From: Sinorhizobium sp. 8-89
GTDB taxonomy: Bacteria; Pseudomonadota; Alphaproteobacteria; Rhizobiales; Rhizobiaceae
Assembly (NCBI RefSeq): GCF_030124325.1
Contig: NZ_JASKLR010000004.1
Span: forward strand, 149,483 to 213,482
Direction of reading: 5' to 3'
DNA: 64,000 nt
Shown: piece after piece, positions 10,141-58,643 of the stretch
How positions within the stretch are numbered: position 1 is the first letter of the stretch
How the letters are laid out: every line of letters starts with the position of its first letter
Program-made: the position numbers and the translations under genes
The notes under the pieces: generated by a model
Databases searched by the model: none
What the model was told of the DNA's origin: nothing
The model's input: only the letters and a program-made list of their open reading frames with translations

Positions 10141-10300
10141 GTGCGATCCACGACGACCGGTGGATTGTTTACGATCCCGGGTGCCTACAAAGTAGGTGGG
10201 CGCCGTGTGTCCGAACCCACGAGTTCGGCCAGGGACAGCTCCCTTGAGATCGTGTATGGCCCCGGGGATTGTGGTTCCTGTCGGGAAGCGCAGACCGCGC
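10141..10300 (-). ncRNA. ssrS: Probable 6S RNA
   Basis: About 160 nt directly downstream of zapA on the same strand, the usual 6S locus (zapA-6S-ygfA). On the minus strand it can form an apical region with GGGA-GCTG-TCCC and CCGAAC-TCGTGG-GTTCGG hairpins, an ATCCCCGGG / CCCGGGAT stem, and the small CCTAC-TTT-GTAGG hairpin expected on the 3' side of the 6S central bubble. It ends near an ATCCAC/GTGGAT hairpin followed by a pyrimidine run ending in TTTTT. 6S RNA binds sigma-70 RNA polymerase in stationary phase. Exact ends are inferred. Confidence 0.65.
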
Positions 10301-11031: not shown

Positions 11032-11194
11032 AGAGCGGGATGAGGAAAAGTGTGAAGCGGATTTCCGCCCCGCCCTAAATCAATCTGCCACTGCATGATT
11101 CCTCAAATCGAAATCGATCTAAGGACAAAATCATGTAGCATCTCAAACCGCTACAGCGACCCTAGCGCGTCCGATTGGACGCGCGGCGCCGTAG
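11032..11194. repeat. Composite repeat: partial family B plus full family A
   Basis: 11032-11080 carries AGAGCGGGATGAGGAAAAGT and a degenerate right arm. 11091-11194 is a full family A element (CTGCATGATTCC ... GGCGCCGTAG). Two families abutting shows the mosaic nature of these repeats. Confidence 0.8.
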
Positions 11195-21346: not shown

Positions 21347-22651
21347 ATGATGAGAAAGAACCTGCTTCCCGTCACCGCGCTCCTGCTTGGTACGCTGTTT
21401 CTCTTCCTTGGAAACGGTCTGCAGAGTCTGCTGCTGCCGGTCCGCGGCACGGCGGAAGGGTATCCGACGACCATTCTCGGCCTCCTTGGCACCTCCTGGG
21501 CCTCCGGCTTCGTTCTCGGCTGCTTCCTGGGGCCGAATGTCGTCAAGCGCATCGGCCATGTGCGCGCCTTCAGTGTCTTCACCGCCCTGATCGCCATCAT
21601 CTCCTTGCTAACCGGCATCCTGGTCGATCCGATCTGGTGGGTTGCGTTGCGCGCTGTCACGGGCTTCTCGACCGCCGGCACATCGATGATCATAGAAAGC
21701 TGGTTGAACGAGCGCGCCACCAATGAAAGCCGCGGCGTAATCTTCTCGCTCTATATCGCGATCACCCTGTTCGGCGTCGTCGGTGGCCAGATGATGATCC
21801 CTTTCGGCGAGACGTCCACGACCTTCTTCTTCATGATCTGCGGCATTCTCTATTGCGTCGCGATGCTGCCGACGCTGCTCTCCAAGGCCGCCTCGCCGCA
21901 GCCGCTGAAACAGGTCCGGCTCGATTTGCGCGGCCTCTACCGCAATTCGCCGGTCTCGTTCTTGGGGATTCTGCTGGTCGGTATCGCAAACGGAGCCTTC
22001 GGAACGCTGGGCGCGGTCTTCGGCCGCCAGGCCGGTCTTTCCGACAGCACCGTCGCAACGATGATGAGCGTGGCAATCTTTTCGGGAGCCGTCATGCAGT
22101 TGCCTGCGGGCCGTATTTCCGACAGCATCGACCGGCGCTACGTGCTGGCGGTGCTGGCAGGCGTCGGCGCGCTTGCGGGTCTCCTGCTCTTCCTCGTCGA
22201 ACCAGGCCAGGTCTGGATCGTGTTGACGCTCATCGCCATCTACGGTGCGGCCGCCAATGCGCTCTATCCGATCGCCGTTTCCCACGCCAACGACTTCGCG
22301 ACGCCCGAAGAATTCGTCAAGGTTTCGGGCGGCCTCTTGCTGCTCTACGGCATTGGCACGATCATCGGCCCGACGATCGGCGGACCGGTGATGACCGCGA
22401 CGGGGCCTTACGGCCTGTTCATGATCACTGCCTGCGCGCATATGTTGATCACGGCCTACGCAATCGTCCGCAGCCGCCGCCGCGCACCAGTTCCGGTCGC
22501 CGAGCGCGACGCCTTCTCGCCGGTCAACGCCGGTACGCCGACGACGCCGGAAAGCCTGCAGCTTTCCCCGCGCGCCGCACCGCTCGATGAACCGCGAGAC
22601 GATATCAGCGACAACCCCGAGGAAGAGGAGAGATCGAATGAGCCTGTTTGA
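21347..22651 (+). CDS. MFS transporter
   Basis: 434 aa with about 12 hydrophobic segments. The N-terminus (NLLPVTALLLGTLFLFLGNG) is the first helix; the segment ASGFVLGCFLGPNVVKRIGHVRAF covers the TM2-3 loop with its conserved basic residues, and ALRAVTGFSTAGTSMIIESW is TM4-like. A charged, proline-rich tail of about 45 residues follows the last helix. The substrate is unknown; the sequence resembles the YcaD-like drug/metabolite branch. Tandem ATGs occur at 21347 and 21350. The DUF1192 gene overlaps its 3' end by 14 nt, so they are co-transcribed. Confidence 0.85.
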   Translation: MMRKNLLPVTALLLGTLFLFLGNGLQSLLLPVRGTAEGYPTTILGLLGTSWASGFVLGCFLGPNVVKRIGHVRAFSVFTALIAIISLLTGILVDPIWWVALRAVTGFSTAGTSMIIESWLNERATNESRGVIFSLYIAITLFGVVGGQMMIPFGETSTTFFFMICGILYCVAMLPTLLSKAASPQPLKQVRLDLRGLYRNSPVSFLGILLVGIANGAFGTLGAVFGRQAGLSDSTVATMMSVAIFSGAVMQLPAGRISDSIDRRYVLAVLAGVGALAGLLLFLVEPGQVWIVLTLIAIYGAAANALYPIAVSHANDFATPEEFVKVSGGLLLLYGIGTIIGPTIGGPVMTATGPYGLFMITACAHMLITAYAIVRSRRRAPVPVAERDAFSPVNAGTPTTPESLQLSPRAAPLDEPRDDISDNPEEEERSNEPV

Positions 22652-22826
22652 CGACGACCTTCCCAAGAAGAAGACGGTCCACGAGATCGGCAGCGACCTG
22701 TCGCTGCTTTCGGTCGATGAACTTTCAGCACGCATCGCGCTTTTGACGGAGGAGATTGCAAGATTGGAGGCCGAACGGGCGCGTAAGTCGGCGAGCCGGT
22801 CCGCAGCGGAGAAGCTCTTTCGGTAG
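22638..22826 (+). CDS. DUF1192 family small protein
   Basis: 62 aa. The pattern SLFDDDLPKKKTVHEIGSDL, then SVDELSARIALLTEEIARLE, is the DUF1192 hallmark: an acidic/basic head, then an SxxEL-ARI helix and a short coiled coil. It is common in alphaproteobacteria and of unknown function. It is cytoplasmic. GAGGAGAG lies before the ATG inside the MFS coding sequence. Being directly upstream of the CtrA-box/rcdA region is notable but may be chance. Confidence 0.8.
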   Translation: MSLFDDDLPKKKTVHEIGSDLSLLSVDELSARIALLTEEIARLEAERARKSASRSAAEKLFR

Positions 22827-22890
22827 GTGACGACGCGGAAAGTTTTCTTGCGCCCGCGCCTCCTTCTTCGCGACCCGAAACGAACGCTGC

Positions 22891-22905
22891 TTAACGGCAA
22901 ATTAA
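22891..22905 (+). promoter_or_regulatory. CtrA box 1 (TTAA-N7-TTAA)
   Basis: TTAACGGCAAATTAA matches the full CtrA consensus TTAA-N7-TTAA exactly and sits in a larger inverted repeat (TGCTTAA / TTAAGCA, 22888-22908). It is about 30 nt upstream of a candidate sRNA, roughly where a CtrA-activated promoter would need it. Confidence 0.6.
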
Positions 22906-22924
22906 GCATTTTCGGCGATTGTCG

Positions 22925-23030
22925 AGTCATCCGGTTTCTCCCGGACTCAGACATTTTCTCCGACTGGCGAATGGGTCTGATTTTTCTCCCTGTTTTACCT
23001 TGAGAGCCGCTTTCCGCGGCTCTTTTTTTG
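22925..23030 (+). ncRNA. Candidate CU-rich trans-acting sRNA
   Basis: Hairpin 1: CCGG-TTTCTC-CCGG (22931-22944). Hairpin 2: TCAGAC (22947-22952) with GTCTGA (22975-22980), its loop holding TTTTCTCC. Then single-stranded TTTTTCTCCC, and a strong terminator AGAGCCGC-TTTCC-GCGGCTCT plus seven T (23003-23030). Three CU-rich anti-Shine-Dalgarno-like motifs in unpaired positions are typical of rhizobial regulatory sRNAs. No ORF fits. Ends are inferred; it could instead be an attenuated leader of rcdA. Confidence 0.6.
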
Positions 23031-23065
23031 TCTTGCGATTGGTGTATTTCAAAGAATTGTGGAGA

Positions 23066-23080
23066 TTAACCCTTTCTTAA
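23066..23080 (+). promoter_or_regulatory. CtrA box 2 upstream of rcdA
   Basis: TTAACCCTTTCTTAA, again an exact TTAA-N7-TTAA, located 124 nt before the rcdA start and after the terminator of the candidate sRNA. It would suit a CtrA-controlled rcdA promoter with start near 23105. Confidence 0.6.
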
Positions 23081-23203
23081 GAATACCCTTGCGCGGAATG
23101 CGGTATGGGGTCATTCTTCAACCATAGAGGGGGCCAGGGACGTTTTTCCCGGAGCCGCCCGTCACCTGACCGTTATGCGTTTGAACCAGGGAAAAAACAG
23201 GCC

Positions 23204-23722
23204 ATGTCCGAGAGAGGATTGAATACCGTCAGCTTCGCGGGACACGCTGCGTCCTCGGCGCAGTTCAAATCGCTCTATGCGGAAGGCATGGGCCTGGTCG
23301 AAGAAACGGCGAGCTATCTCGATGGGCCGGGCCGCCTGGCCTCCAAGGCGCTGCCGCGGATGGCGTCGGTGCTCTATGCGGCCGAGTCGATGCGGCTCAC
23401 CACGCGGCTGATGCAGATGGCCTCTTGGCTTCTCCTCCAGCGCGCCGTCAACAACGGCGAGATGAGCCGTGATCAGGTTCTGTCAGAAAAAAGCAAGGTT
23501 CGCCTCGACAGCTTCAATGTCGATCGCAGCGCGCCCGGCTGGAACGACCTTCCGGAGACCTTCCGCGATCTGATCGAACGGTCGCTCCGCCTGCAGAACC
23601 GCGTCGCCATGCTCGATCGAGAGATTTACCGGCCGCACGAGGCGACGAGCTTCGTTCCGGACAACCAGAACGGCGTCAAGGCGCAGATCAAGCTGCTGCA
23701 GACCGCCTTCGGCACCAACTGA
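23204..23722 (+). CDS. rcdA: RcdA, regulator of CtrA degradation (DUF1465)
   Basis: 172 aa. It matches the DUF1465/RcdA family: QFKSLYAEGMGLVEETASYL, then MASVLYAAESMRLTTRLMQM, VNNGEMSRD and NRVAMLDREIYRP form the helical core. In Caulobacter RcdA is an adaptor that, with CpdR and PopA, brings the master cell-cycle regulator CtrA to the ClpXP protease. An RcdA homologue is also reported as important in S. meliloti, where CtrA control is linked to bacteroid development. ATG 23204 gives the family start; the 33-codon extension upstream overlaps the promoter region. Two CtrA boxes lie upstream, suggesting feedback. Confidence 0.88.
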   Translation: MSERGLNTVSFAGHAASSAQFKSLYAEGMGLVEETASYLDGPGRLASKALPRMASVLYAAESMRLTTRLMQMASWLLLQRAVNNGEMSRDQVLSEKSKVRLDSFNVDRSAPGWNDLPETFRDLIERSLRLQNRVAMLDREIYRPHEATSFVPDNQNGVKAQIKLLQTAFGTN

Positions 23723-23755
23723 CGCCCGAACGGCTCACCTTCCCTGACAATCCAG

Positions 23756-23779
23756 AACCCGGCCGCGCGCCGGGTTTTT
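23756..23779 (+). terminator. Terminator after rcdA
   Basis: AACCCGGC (23756-23763) pairs with GCCGGGTT (23769-23776), followed by T residues. 33 nt past the rcdA stop. Confidence 0.85.
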
Positions 23780-23838
23780 CGTGCCGGAGCATGGCTCCGC
23801 TAACCTGCAGCAATTCAAAAGTTTACAGGTGCGAGGCA

Positions 23839-23865
23839 ACAAAAAAGCCCGGCAGAGCCGGGCTT
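23839..23865 (-). terminator. Terminator after rpmE
   Basis: On the minus strand AAGCCCGGC-TCT-GCCGGGCTT is followed by TTTTGTT. It lies 25 nt past the rpmE stop. Confidence 0.85.
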
Positions 23866-23890
23866 CGAACACGCCGAAAACAGCCAGCGA

Positions 23891-24112
23891 TCAGAGGCCG
23901 AGGCCTTCGAAGCGCTTCTTGAACTTGGAGACGCGGCCGCCGCGGTCGACGAGCTGCTGGTTGCCGCCGGTCCAGGCCGGATGCGACTTCGGATCGATTT
24001 CCAGGTTCATGGTGGCGCCTTCCGAACCCCAGGTCGAGCGGGTTTCGTATTCGGTGCCGTCGGTCATGACCACCTTGATCGTGTGGTAGTCGGGATGGAT
24101 GTCTGCCTTCAT
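23891..24112 (-). CDS. rpmE: 50S ribosomal protein L31
   Basis: 73 aa. The start [20 protein letters not shown], the middle [15 protein letters not shown] and the end KFKKRFEGL are typical of bacterial L31. No CXXC zinc motif is present, so it is the C-minus type that does not need zinc. The ATG at 24112 is fixed by an AGGAAG site; the longer open frame upstream is not conserved. A strong hairpin (24134-24170) lies in the leader just before the ribosome site, suggesting autoregulation. Confidence 0.96.
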
Positions 24113-24133
24113 AACAATCTTCCTAGAGTTCCA

Positions 24134-24170
24134 GGGTCCAATTGTCGCAAGGCATTGCGACTTTGGGACC
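24134..24170 (-). promoter_or_regulatory. Leader hairpin of rpmE
   Basis: GTCGCAA-GGCA-TTGCGAC (24144-24161) is a perfect inner stem, extended by GGGTCC / GGGACC outside. It ends 10 nt upstream of the AGGAAG ribosome site. Ribosomal-protein leaders of this kind bind the protein product, and L31 leaders are known in other bacterial groups. Confidence 0.5.
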
Positions 24171-24300
24171 GAACACGTAAATGAAGCCGCAGACCGCCAC
24201 TGGGCTACGGCTCCCCAATTCGATGCCGTGCCTATACATGAAGGTCTGCGGGATAACAAGTGCCGCGCGGAAGACTTATCAGGAAAGCCCTTCCGCGCTA

Positions 24301-24400
24301 CTGCATGATTCCTTAAATCGGAATCGATTTGAGGAATCATGCAGCATTTCAAAGTGCTACAGCGACCTTAGCGCGTCCGATCGGACGCGCGGCGCTGTAG
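24301..24400. repeat. RIME-like mosaic repeat, family A (best copy)
   Basis: Module 1: CTGCATGATTCCTTAAATCG with its near-exact complement ending GAATCATGCAG (one T/G variation). Linker CATTTCAAAGTGCTACAGCG. Module 2: CTACAGCG...GCGCGTCCGATCGGACGCGC...CGCTGTAG. It lies between rpmE and the ABC exporter and ends 16 nt before the exporter start. Confidence 0.85.
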
Positions 24401-24415
24401 GCGATCGGGGGTCAT

Positions 24416-26218
24416 GTGTCCACACGAGAGAACCAACCGCCAGCACGCAGGTCCATTCGCCCGCTTGCCGCCGTGCTGCCCTACCTGGCGCGATACCGCC
24501 CGCTTGTGGTTGGAGCCGCAATCTCGCTGACGCTCGCGGCGGTCACCACGCTGACATTGCCGCTGGCCGTCCGCCGGATGATCGACAACGGCTTCTCCAA
24601 TTCCGATTCCGGCTTCATCAACACCTATTTCTCGATGCTGATGGTGTTGGCCATCGTCCTCGCCCTTGCCAGTGCCGCGCGCTACTACTTCGTCATTTCG
24701 CTCGGCGAGCGCATCGTCGCCGATCTCCGCCGCGATGTCTTCGCCAAGGTCACCCGGCTTTCCGCCTCCTTCTTCGATGTCAACCAGTCAGGGGAAATCG
24801 TGTCCCGCCTGACCGCCGACACGACGCAGATCAAATCGGCCGTCGGCGCCACGGCCTCGGTGGCGCTGCGCAATCTGATCCTCTGTCTCGGCGCCATCGG
24901 CATGATGATCTATACCAGTCCGAAGCTTTCGAGCCTCGTGCTTGCAGCGATCCCGGTCATCGTCTTTCCTCTCGTCGGTTTCGGCCGGTCTGTCCGCCGG
25001 CGCTCGCGCGAGGCGCAGGACACACTTGCCACAGCCTCCGCCTATGCCGGGGAGGCGATCGCGGCAGCCCGCACGGTCCAGGCCTTTAACGGTGAAGAAA
25101 GCGCCAACCGGCATTTCGGCAGCGCGGTAGAAGACGCCTATGGCGCGGCGCGGGCGGCGATCAAGGCGCGATCGATCCTCACCGGATTTGCCATCACCAT
25201 GGTCTTCGGCAGCGTCGTCGCCGTGCTCTGGTTCGGCGCGCGCGACGTGCTCGCGGGCACGCTCTCGGCAGGCACGCTCAGCCAGTTCCTGCTCTATTCG
25301 GTTTTCGCGGCCGGCAGCCTCGGCGCGCTCTCGGAGGTTTGGGGTGAACTCTCGCAAGCGGCGGGTGCCGCCGAGCGCCTGAACGAACTGCTGACGGAAG
25401 TGCCGCAGATCCAGGCGCCCGAGCATCCCGTCGCCATGCCAGTGCCGGCACAGGGGGCGATCGAGTTTGCCGACGTCCACTTCGCCTATCCCGCGCGCCC
25501 GGATTACAAGAGCCTGAACGGCCTGAGCTTCGCGGTCAAGCCGGGCGAAACCGTGGCCATCGTCGGCCCCTCCGGCGCGGGCAAGAGCACCGTCTTCTCA
25601 CTGCTCCTGCGCTACTATGATCCGGTCAAAGGAACTGTCACCGTCGACGGCATCGACGCCCGCACCGTCGACCCCAAGGAGTTGCGCGGCCGCATTGCCA
25701 TCGTGCCGCAGGACACGACGATCTTCGCCGCCTCCGTGCACGACAACATTGCGTTTGGCGCGTCGGATGCGAGCCGGGAAGCCGTCCGCGCAGCCGCTGT
25801 CGCCGCGCAGGCGGACGAATTCATCGCAAAGCTTGATCGGGGCTACGACACCGAAGTCGGCGAGCGCGGGATCACGCTTTCCGGGGGCCAGCGACAGCGC
25901 ATCGCCATCGCAAGGGCGATCCTCAGGAACGCGCCGATTCTTCTCCTGGACGAGGCGACCTCGGCGCTCGACGCCGAGAGCGAGACATTGGTGCAGACGG
26001 CGCTCGACGGCCTGATGCGGCAGCGCACTACCGTTGTCATCGCACATCGATTGGCGACCGTGCTCAAGGCCGACCGTATCCTGGTCATGGACCACGGCCG
26101 CGTCGTTGAGGAAGGCACACATACGTCGCTGATCCGCCAAGGCGGCCTTTACGCAAAGCTCGCCCGGCTGCAGTTCGACCACGGCGCGGAAGCGCTCTTC
26201 GTCGCGGCTCGAACTTAG
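24416..26218 (+). CDS. ABC exporter, fused permease-ATPase (MsbA-related)
   Basis: 600 aa half-transporter. The N-terminal half holds six TM segments (first about residues 30-50, VVGAAISLTLAAVTTLTLPL). The C-terminal ATPase is complete: Walker A GPSGAGKST, signature LSGGQRQRIAIARA, Walker B ILLLDEATSALD and H-loop IAHRLAT. It should work as a homodimer in the inner membrane, exporting lipids or hydrophobic compounds; it resembles the alphaproteobacterial MsbA-related subfamily rather than MsbA itself. The start is a GTG at 24416 with GGGGG just upstream, 16 nt after a mosaic repeat. Confidence 0.92.
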   Translation: MSTRENQPPARRSIRPLAAVLPYLARYRPLVVGAAISLTLAAVTTLTLPLAVRRMIDNGFSNSDSGFINTYFSMLMVLAIVLALASAARYYFVISLGERIVADLRRDVFAKVTRLSASFFDVNQSGEIVSRLTADTTQIKSAVGATASVALRNLILCLGAIGMMIYTSPKLSSLVLAAIPVIVFPLVGFGRSVRRRSREAQDTLATASAYAGEAIAAARTVQAFNGEESANRHFGSAVEDAYGAARAAIKARSILTGFAITMVFGSVVAVLWFGARDVLAGTLSAGTLSQFLLYSVFAAGSLGALSEVWGELSQAAGAAERLNELLTEVPQIQAPEHPVAMPVPAQGAIEFADVHFAYPARPDYKSLNGLSFAVKPGETVAIVGPSGAGKSTVFSLLLRYYDPVKGTVTVDGIDARTVDPKELRGRIAIVPQDTTIFAASVHDNIAFGASDASREAVRAAAVAAQADEFIAKLDRGYDTEVGERGITLSGGQRQRIAIARAILRNAPILLLDEATSALDAESETLVQTALDGLMRQRTTVVIAHRLATVLKADRILVMDHGRVVEEGTHTSLIRQGGLYAKLARLQFDHGAEALFVAART

Positions 26219-41133: not shown

Positions 41134-42165
41134 ATGCTCGCCGCGCTACTGCTTCTCGCCATCCCGATAATCGCCAGCGTCGGCTATAGTATCTGGCAGG
41201 CGCGCCGCTTATCCGCACGCTTTCCGAACCAAGGCGAACTCGTCGATGTCGGCGGCTTCCGCATGAACTGCGTTCACGTGGCCGCGCCGAGCAGTGCCGA
41301 TCTGCCGCCTGTCGTCTTCATCCACGGTGCCGGCGGCAATCTGCTCGACCAGATGCATGCCTTCAGGCCGGCGCTGGAAGGGCGGGCGGAGCTGCTTTTC
41401 GTCGACCGGCCGGGACACGGTTATTCAGAGCGGGGCGGAGCCGTCAATGGCTGGCCCGACGGTCAGGCGGATGCGATCGCGAAACTGATGGAGCGTCGTG
41501 GCATCGATCGTGCCATCATCGTCGGCCATTCCTTCGGTGGTGCGATTGCCGCAAGTTTCGCGCTTCATCACCCCGAGCGAACCGCAGGCGTCGTTCTTCT
41601 CGCACCGGCGACGCATCCCTGGCCTGGCGGAATCGACTGGTACGTCACGTTGACGAAGCTTCCTTGCCTTGGCTGGGTCTTCGCCCACACCGTCGCGACG
41701 CCGCTTGGCCTGCGCCTCATCGACAGCAGCACGCTCTCGATCTTCTCACCCAACACGCGACCCGTGGATTACATAAACAAGACCGCTCCCCATCTGGTGC
41801 TCCGGCCGATGACCTTTCGCCACAACGCAATCGACATTGCCAACCTGCACGCCTACGTGACGCGTATCTCTCCGCGCTATGGCGAGATCACGGCACCGAC
41901 CGTCATCATCACCGGCGACAGCGACACCATCGTTCTCGCCGATATCCATGCGCGCGGCCTTGCGCGCGACATCGCCGGCTCGGAACTGTTGTGGATCGGC
42001 AATCTCGGGCACAAGCCAGACTACGTGGTGACCGACGTCGTCGTTGCTGCGATCGAGAAGCTGGCGGGCAAGCCGCTCGACCTGCAGGAGGTAGCGCGGC
42101 AGGCCGAAGCCCGCCTCGCCGCCACAGCGCCGCGCGTCTTGTCAGACGCGCAAAGAACGCTGTAG
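41134..42165 (+). CDS. Membrane-anchored alpha/beta hydrolase
   Basis: 343 aa from ATG 41134. A hydrophobic N-terminus (LAALLLLAIPIIASVGYSIW) is an anchor. The fold shows an oxyanion HGAGGN loop, the nucleophile elbow VGHSFGGAIAAS, the acid in ITGDSDTIV and a His in NLGHKPD, so it should be active on esters or related bonds. A TTG seven codons earlier is also possible. The last residues (ATAPRVLSDAQRTL) are encoded by a family A repeat, which also gives the stop codon. Confidence 0.82.
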   Translation: MLAALLLLAIPIIASVGYSIWQARRLSARFPNQGELVDVGGFRMNCVHVAAPSSADLPPVVFIHGAGGNLLDQMHAFRPALEGRAELLFVDRPGHGYSERGGAVNGWPDGQADAIAKLMERRGIDRAIIVGHSFGGAIAASFALHHPERTAGVVLLAPATHPWPGGIDWYVTLTKLPCLGWVFAHTVATPLGLRLIDSSTLSIFSPNTRPVDYINKTAPHLVLRPMTFRHNAIDIANLHAYVTRISPRYGEITAPTVIITGDSDTIVLADIHARGLARDIAGSELLWIGNLGHKPDYVVTDVVVAAIEKLAGKPLDLQEVARQAEARLAATAPRVLSDAQRTL

Positions 42166-42225
42166 CGCTTTGAATTGCTGCATGTTTCTCCTTAAATCGG
42201 TTACGATTTAACGAAACGTGCAGTA
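42123..42225. repeat. RIME-like mosaic repeat, family A (inverted)
   Basis: Module 2 first (CACAGCGCCGCGCGTCTTGT...CGCTGTAG), linker CGCTTTGAATTGCTG, then module 1 (CATGTTTCTCCTTAAATCGG...CGTGCAG). It overlaps the last 43 nt of the hydrolase gene and lies before the pykA stop. Confidence 0.8.
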
Positions 42226-51715: not shown

Positions 51716-51819
51716 TACAGCGCCGTGCGTCTTTTCAGACGCACAAAGGTCGCTGTAGCACTTTGAATCGCTGCATGTTTTATCCTTAAATCGAATAGGA
51801 TTTCAGGAAACATGCAGTA
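51716..51819. repeat. RIME-like mosaic repeat, family A (inverted)
   Basis: Module 2 (TTACAGCGCCGTGCGTCTTT...CGCTGTAG), linker CACTTTGAATCGCTG, module 1 (CATGTTTTATCCTTAAATCG...AAACATGCAG). It fills the gap between pepF and pabB. Confidence 0.8.
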
Positions 51820-51839
51820 GGCCTTGCTCCAACGGCCGG

Positions 51840-58468: not shown

Positions 58469-58538
58469 CCCGAACGGCATCAGCTATCGCGGCCCTTCGA
58501 AGGCCGCGTCGCATGGTTCGGCAGCCGGCTTAACCCTA

Positions 58539-58643
58539 CTGCATGATTCCTTAAATCGGGATCGATTTAAGGACAAAATCATGCGGCAATTCAAAGTGCT
58601 ACAGCGACCTTTTGCGCGTCCGATTGGACGCGCGGCGCTGTAG
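58539..58643. repeat. RIME-like mosaic repeat, family A
   Basis: CTGCATGATTCCTTAAATCG...TTTAAGGACAAAATCATGC, linker GGCAATTCAAAGTGCTACAG, then CGCGTCCGATTGGACGCG...CGCTGTAG. This copy is close to the one at 24.3 kb. Confidence 0.85.

Follow-up and report, generated by a model that had tools for sequence, protein, structure and literature searches.

The intergenic region upstream of rcdA in the 64-kb stretch of DNA analysed here (the window) quite probably holds two transcription units, one for a CtrA-driven, trans-acting small RNA (sRNA) with a distal CtrA box and one for rcdA with a proximal box. Across the order, the CtrA box follows the RNA rather than rcdA, and the distal box most likely serves the sRNA as its own CtrA promoter element, in the -35 region. 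In the proposed arrangement, phosphorylated CtrA at the distal box (about -38 to -24) would act with the -10 element at 22917-22922 to produce an sRNA of ~100 nt, a member of the sm84/SmelC671 family that would end at its own terminator, and rcdA would be transcribed from its own promoter with the proximal box. The sRNA would most likely act in trans, its unpaired CU-rich linker pairing with the purine-rich Shine-Dalgarno regions of mRNAs, and would give the CtrA regulon a post-transcriptional arm when CtrA is active. Control of the sRNA by CtrA, as activation rather than repression, and the pairing of the linker with mRNAs are all steps that we infer.

CtrA boxes and gene neighbourhood in the window

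Direct reading found both exact CtrA boxes and both GANTC sites where a sequence-only reading of the same DNA had placed them (Table 1). The two boxes are the only exact matches to TTAA-N7-TTAA in the window (shuffle mean 0.03), none of 100 shuffles reached two, and two exact boxes within 190 bp are unusual. A single exact box is weak evidence alone, because the whole 7.06-Mb genome contains 34 exact boxes against 41 for a reversed control pattern, and thus shows no genome-wide enrichment; the weight rests on the position and conservation of the boxes and not on one exact match. Elsewhere in the genome, three exact boxes lie within 96 bp (C27:283027-283122; L084 2028-2123), upstream of a 259-aa reading frame on the minus strand.

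The product of the gene that follows is RcdA (23204-23719; NCBIfam NF051867 equivalog, 210.9 bits against a cut-off of 170), with a best match of 99% in S. psoraleae. An MFS transporter gene and a DUF1192 gene are its neighbours, and rpmE lies on the other strand. The -10-like element upstream of the RNA reads TATTAC or TATACA in many relatives in the alignments.

Table 1. Features of the region upstream of rcdA, and related features elsewhere in the window, with the basis of each assignment
Feature	Position	Strand	Basis and remarks
Distal CtrA box TTAACGGCAAATTAA	22891..22905	+	direct reading; exact TTAA-N7-TTAA
-10-like element GATTGT	22917..22922	+	alignments; putative, assigned by position
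GAGTC (GANTC)	22924-22928		direct reading
sRNA, almost certainly ortholog of S. meliloti sm84/SmelC671/SMc06875	22929..23029	+	~100 nt; predicted 5' end; published sRNA, structure, covariation
Stem-loop 1	22930..22945	+	alignment structure and covariation
GACTC (GANTC), spanning the junction of stem-loops 1 and 2	22944..22948	+	direct reading and RNA structure
Stem-loop 2	22947..22980	+	alignment structure, folding, covariation
Unpaired CU-rich linker UUUUUCUCCCUGUUUUACCUU, nearly invariant	22981..23001	+	alignment; possible mRNA-pairing region
Intrinsic terminator (stem-loop 3 and T-run)	23002..23029	+	hairpin 23002-23024, T-run to 23029
Proximal CtrA box TTAACCCTTTCTTAA of the rcdA promoter	23066..23080	+	direct reading; exact TTAA-N7-TTAA
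Conserved CTTGCG, putative -35-like element of the rcdA promoter	23088..23093	+	alignment
rcdA (protease adaptor for CtrA degradation)	23204..23722	+	NF051867, PF07323
6S RNA	10141-10299	-	77.4 bits against a gathering score of 46.4
Interspersed repeat copies	24296-24397, 58536-58640, 51744-51820, 11084-11141, 42144-42183

The three-hairpin RNA and its published counterpart

The three-hairpin RNA between the boxes is real, which bears out the structured RNA with its own terminator that the sequence-only reading had described. The segment 22931-23029 folds at -34.5 kcal/mol (z = -4.29), and none of 200 shuffles was as stable. The same RNA lies upstream of rcdA in the window and in all 80 fetched rcdA loci, which are the best 80 of 554 rcdA loci from named genomes, mostly of Rhizobiaceae genera. 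Three helices emerged when 70 of the 75 distinct rows from these near relatives were aligned, and a near-invariant stretch starts where stem-loop 2 ends, takes in the CU-rich linker and reaches the terminator stem. The linker reads UUUGACGCCUCCCUGUUAAC in many members from other families.

We searched 297 genomes of the order with a model of the RNA (R1) that did not contain the box, and obtained 113 matches including the window's own genome. A second model (R2), again without the box, was built from 77 of the R1 order sequences together with near relatives, and matched 225 of the 297 genomes, leaving 72 without a match at that threshold. Across 77 aligned sequences of the order, standard pairs occupied 94.9% of cells against 29-48% for slid versions of the structure, a margin that is large even though the alignment was fitted to the RNA model and thus favours the structure. 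Changes on both sides were seen in 19 of 20 pairs, and on none of five measures did any of 500 shuffles match the observed value. A second RNA, which has a CCUCCCU linker but no CtrA box, was seen at two loci of family f42 (L183 and L194), and in one genome (G083) a CCUCCCU-linker RNA coexists with the rcdA-linked RNA (L215). Only 6S RNA scored above the gathering threshold among Rfam families in the window, the sRNA itself being without a match.

The window RNA and S. meliloti sm84/SmelC671 are almost certainly orthologs. This identity is based on the fit of strand, order, size and neighbourhood rather than on a comparison with the published sequence, and SMc03989 is presumably rcdA. Valverde et al. 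(2008, PMC2573895) described sm84 from the intergenic region SMc03988>-SMc03989> on the plus strand, with a Northern band of ~80 nt, a microarray signal under six stresses, a level raised by phosphate starvation and a predicted sigma-70 promoter. SmelC671 is annotated as 100 nt at 2986421-2986520, and the S. meliloti 6S RNA at 2972090-2972252 on the minus strand (Schlueter et al., 2010, PMC2873474). These published coordinates, from strain 1021, place 14,169 nt between 6S RNA and SmelC671, which is 1.7 kb off the 12,433 nt between 6S RNA and the RNA in S. meliloti 4H41, where 6S RNA is also upstream. The two genes flanking the RNA share a strand, and 6S RNA is encoded ~12-14 kb upstream on the other one; the RNA is ~100 nt long with a typical terminator, and is widespread in Rhizobiales, as the R2 matches show. 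In its intergenic setting, ~100-nt size, terminator and Rhizobiales spread it is like sm84/SmelC671/SMc06875 as published (family RFMSmelC671; R. etli ReC71; PMC2573895, PMC2873474, PMC3927594, PMC7143759). Since the S. meliloti counterpart is a published transcript, the earlier expectation of a short transcript ending near 23030 is very likely right.

The family RFMSmelC671 occurs in several Rhizobiales families (Reinkensmeier et al., 2011, PMC3927594), and the term CtrA is absent from the accessible text of that paper. The table of a 2020 review (PMC7143759), in its flattened form, gives SmelC671 without a predicted promoter motif, without an Hfq mark and with expression in nodule zone II. 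Unlike the reading proposed here, the sm84/SmelC671 publications, in the passages available, give no CtrA link for this sRNA, and no passage linking the two appeared in the portions of the open-access literature that were searched.

Other named sRNAs were considered. SmelC778/Sm5 lies between dapF and ffh and was dropped as the published counterpart. The sequence-only reading had raised GspR as a possible identity, but GspR is encoded at a different locus, between SMc03844 and SMc03845 (PMC5928217), whereas the window RNA has DUF1192 and rcdA as neighbours and sm84 occupies the interval SMc03988-SMc03989. GspR (SmelC775) is a Sinorhizobium trans-sRNA tied to CtrA, as is proposed for the window RNA, but it targets the ctrA mRNA and, in the account of that paper, has no known promoter signature ahead of it (PMC5928217). 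EcpR1 (SmelC291) is likewise a conserved cell-cycle sRNA of Rhizobiales; it differs in its GC-rich loop motif and in its position downstream of pleD-divK (PMC4414408), and was rejected as the window RNA, which lies between DUF1192 and rcdA. Like the window RNA by description, CcnA of Caulobacter crescentus starts a short way past a CtrA box and has a C-rich pairing loop, but it is 182 nt long and lies in the replication origin (PMC8959179), whereas the locus of the window RNA is linked to rcdA.

The distal box across the order and beyond

We looked for a CtrA box from 60 nt upstream of the RNA model to 5 nt into it, in 112 genomes from the R1 search and in a second set of 47 further genomes that were new with R2 among the matches listed; these 159 genomes are a subset of the 225 R2 matches. 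A box with at most one mismatch was present just upstream of the RNA in 106/112 and 46/47 genomes (152/159) and was missing in six and one, respectively, the 112 including three weak matches (L183, L194 and L201) that resemble other RNAs or chance. The box was exact in 70/112 and 10/47 (80/159), and with at most one mismatch it was found at least once in each of the 40 families. Windows shifted by 100 to 1000 nt contained no exact box in either set, and a box with at most one mismatch in 0-5 cases for the R1 set (110 to 112 usable) and 0-2 for the set of 47. Dinucleotide shuffles of the 112 windows gave 1.9% exact boxes and 15.7% with at most one mismatch. The spacing is near-constant, the distance from the end of the box to the model start being 12-15 nt in 86 of 106 R1 and 41 of 46 R2 cases.

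Relative to the predicted start site, a TTAA-N7-TTAA box thus stands at a conserved position near -35. When the 100 nt of SmelC671 were laid on the terminator end of locus L020, the 5' end fell 24 nt past the box, with a -10-like element between them. This arrangement of box, -10-like element and start resembles CtrA-activated promoters. The CtrA box of Caulobacter ccnA at -23 (PMC8959179) is close to the 24-nt box-to-start spacing deduced in L020.

Conservation in related species, which the sequence-only reading had put forward as a check, was found for boxes and hairpins alike. In the window and its 80 nearest loci, the distal box was exact in 53 of 81, had one mismatch in 20 and two in 8, compared with none of 81 control windows with at most one mismatch. 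Within these near relatives the proximal box is the better kept, since it was exact in 81/81 while eight distal boxes carried two mismatches, a point that counts against a CtrA-driven sRNA. Across the order, an exact box within 450 nt after the RNA, between it and rcdA, was found in 17 of 106 genomes, comprising all 11 of the window's family but only 6 of the 95 others. If one mismatch is tolerated, 35/106 order genomes have another box after the RNA, against 10/104 in an upstream control stretch, so the contrast between distal and proximal boxes is a matter of degree, and a weaker second box may exist in some of the other families. Of the CtrA-linked elements at the locus, the sRNA is probably the older. 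Of the earlier statement that both boxes precede rcdA, the position of both upstream stands, but conservation across the order makes the distal box most likely that of the sRNA and not of rcdA. In five near relatives (L002-L006), the stretch separating the sRNA terminator from the rcdA box contains a sequence that resembles an interspersed repeat of the window, with both units intact.

In S. meliloti, ChIP-seq placed a CtrA site in the rcdA promoter, given for the promoter as a whole in the passages available, and depletion of CtrA did not significantly change rcdA expression (PMC4433202). A motif survey also gave a CtrA motif upstream of an rcdA transcription start site (PMC3616915). The depletion result speaks against the suggestion in the sequence-only reading that CtrA activates its own destroyer. 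The occupancy without a response of rcdA would be explained if a CtrA-driven sRNA promoter were present there.

A search of the class with R2 gave matches in 32 of 385 genomes, 29 of them outside the order, so class-wide spread is not supported. Twenty-nine class-search loci were fetched; two belong to the order (f42) and three short ones were left out. A box with at most one mismatch was present in 16 of the 24 examined loci from outside the order, among which the weak matches are probably chance. In three families outside the order (f61, f172 and f174), most examined members keep the RNA, rcdA and a box with one or two mismatches. Five loci outside the order (L210, L211, L217, L218 and L222) combine the RNA with an exact box and lack an rcdA within 1.5 kb; the box of L217 is 32 nt away, farther than the usual spacing. 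In L210 and L217 (families f93 and f53), the RNA lies between frames that, by sequence reading, are quinone oxidoreductase-like and O-acetylhomoserine sulfhydrylase-like.

Competing readings, targets and meaning

A role for the RNA as cis-acting leader or attenuator of rcdA, with transcription from the distal box toward rcdA being stopped or let through at the hairpin, is unlikely. Such a leader would suit the presence of rcdA downstream on the same strand in 106/112 and 46/47 genomes (the contig of L302, the sole exception among the 47, ends 351 nt past the RNA) and the more than one transcription start site of agrobacterial rcdA orthologs (PMC10469942). However, the near relatives have a separate rcdA box and promoter-like elements, the gap between terminator and proximal box varies from ~36 nt (the window, L001, L007 and L020) to ~140 nt (L002-L006 and L025), and S. 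meliloti yields the ~80-nt band (PMC2573895). The RNA and box also occur without a nearby rcdA, within 1.5 kb at L210, L211, L218 and L222, and within ~4 kb at L103 of the order, where the box is exact (L202, a longer fetch of this locus, was counted once with it).

An ordinary sigma-70 promoter for the sRNA, with CtrA at the distal box either repressing the sRNA or acting only on rcdA, is similarly improbable. Valverde et al. give a sigma-70 promoter for sm84 (PMC2573895) and CtrA does repress some genes in S. meliloti (PMC4433202), yet the box occupies the place of the -35 element at a near-fixed spacing in many families. A consensus scan of 21500-24500 found no sigma-70-like site, which is weakly informative as 0.8 would be expected. 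The induction of sm84 by phosphate starvation (PMC2573895), which is not obviously explained by CtrA, and the predicted sigma-70 promoter also weigh against the CtrA-driven sRNA.

The sequence-only reading had suggested that the locus might be under methylation control through its two GANTC sites. Regulation mainly by CcrM/GcrA methylation at these sites is very unlikely, although 65 of 81 near loci have a GANTC near the 5' end of the RNA, compared with 8% of random windows. Outside the family this falls to 14/101 against 6.8%, and a GANTC corresponding to GAGTC 22924 is present in only 3 of 80 near relatives. In the conserved GACTC 22944, G and A pair at the end of stem-loop 1, T and C pair at the beginning of stem-loop 2 and the N alone is unpaired, so RNA structure can explain its conservation, although a U-G pair would tolerate G in place of A. 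In the window as a whole (1-64000), GANTC occurs 107 times against a dinucleotide-shuffle mean of 369, and is thus much rarer than in shuffles.

That the RNA is a processed 3' end of the MFS-DUF1192 transcript is hardly credible: the RNA does follow DUF1192 in the same orientation and has a terminator at its end, but a conserved box and -10 geometry directly precede it, and the upstream neighbour differs in other contexts, lying on the opposite strand in L210.

In a search for targets of the CU-rich linker, we scanned six genomes for AACAGGGAG-N3-11-ATG and found 44 places against 5 for a reversed control, with no gene common between genomes among 30 translated loci; several of these 30 resemble periplasmic binding proteins by sequence reading. 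The scan yielded no conserved target, which counts against the CtrA-driven sRNA. The linker paired with the window rcdA leader at -20.4 kcal/mol (duplex energy only, without accessibility), compared with a mean of -12.2 (sd 4.1) for 143 leaders that were crudely called, the right rcdA start being missed in most sources. Pairing with the rcdA leader at -16.3 kcal/mol or better was seen in 27 of 30 Sinorhizobium/Ensifer loci and in 11 of 51 other near relatives. Because starts were miscalled and purine-rich leaders as a class suit a CU-rich query, the rcdA leader may be regarded as a weak lead to a target, in Sinorhizobium only. Against ctrA leaders of 60 nt in six genomes, the linker gave ordinary values of -12.9 to -14.8; with 300-nt leaders, one genome (L309) reached -21.3.

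The sRNA probably gives the CtrA circuit an RNA arm. Its status as a Northern-detected sRNA, as sm84/SmelC671, was already published; what is new is the assignment to it, as its most likely element, of the distal CtrA box. This would supply a promoter logic for a widely conserved sRNA family for which the publications, in the parts covered, name no regulator, and would add a candidate CtrA-controlled sRNA outside Caulobacter. It would also offer a direct explanation for the puzzle in S. meliloti of CtrA at the rcdA promoter with an unresponsive rcdA. A wider and rather doubtful possibility is that the RNA is a core CtrA-regulon sRNA of the order, scattered elsewhere in Alphaproteobacteria, that pairs with Shine-Dalgarno regions and whose targets in Sinorhizobium include the neighbouring rcdA mRNA. 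If so, active CtrA would, through the sRNA, restrain rcdA translation, a positive feedback that would delay the destruction of CtrA and would be the opposite of the loop in the sequence-only reading.
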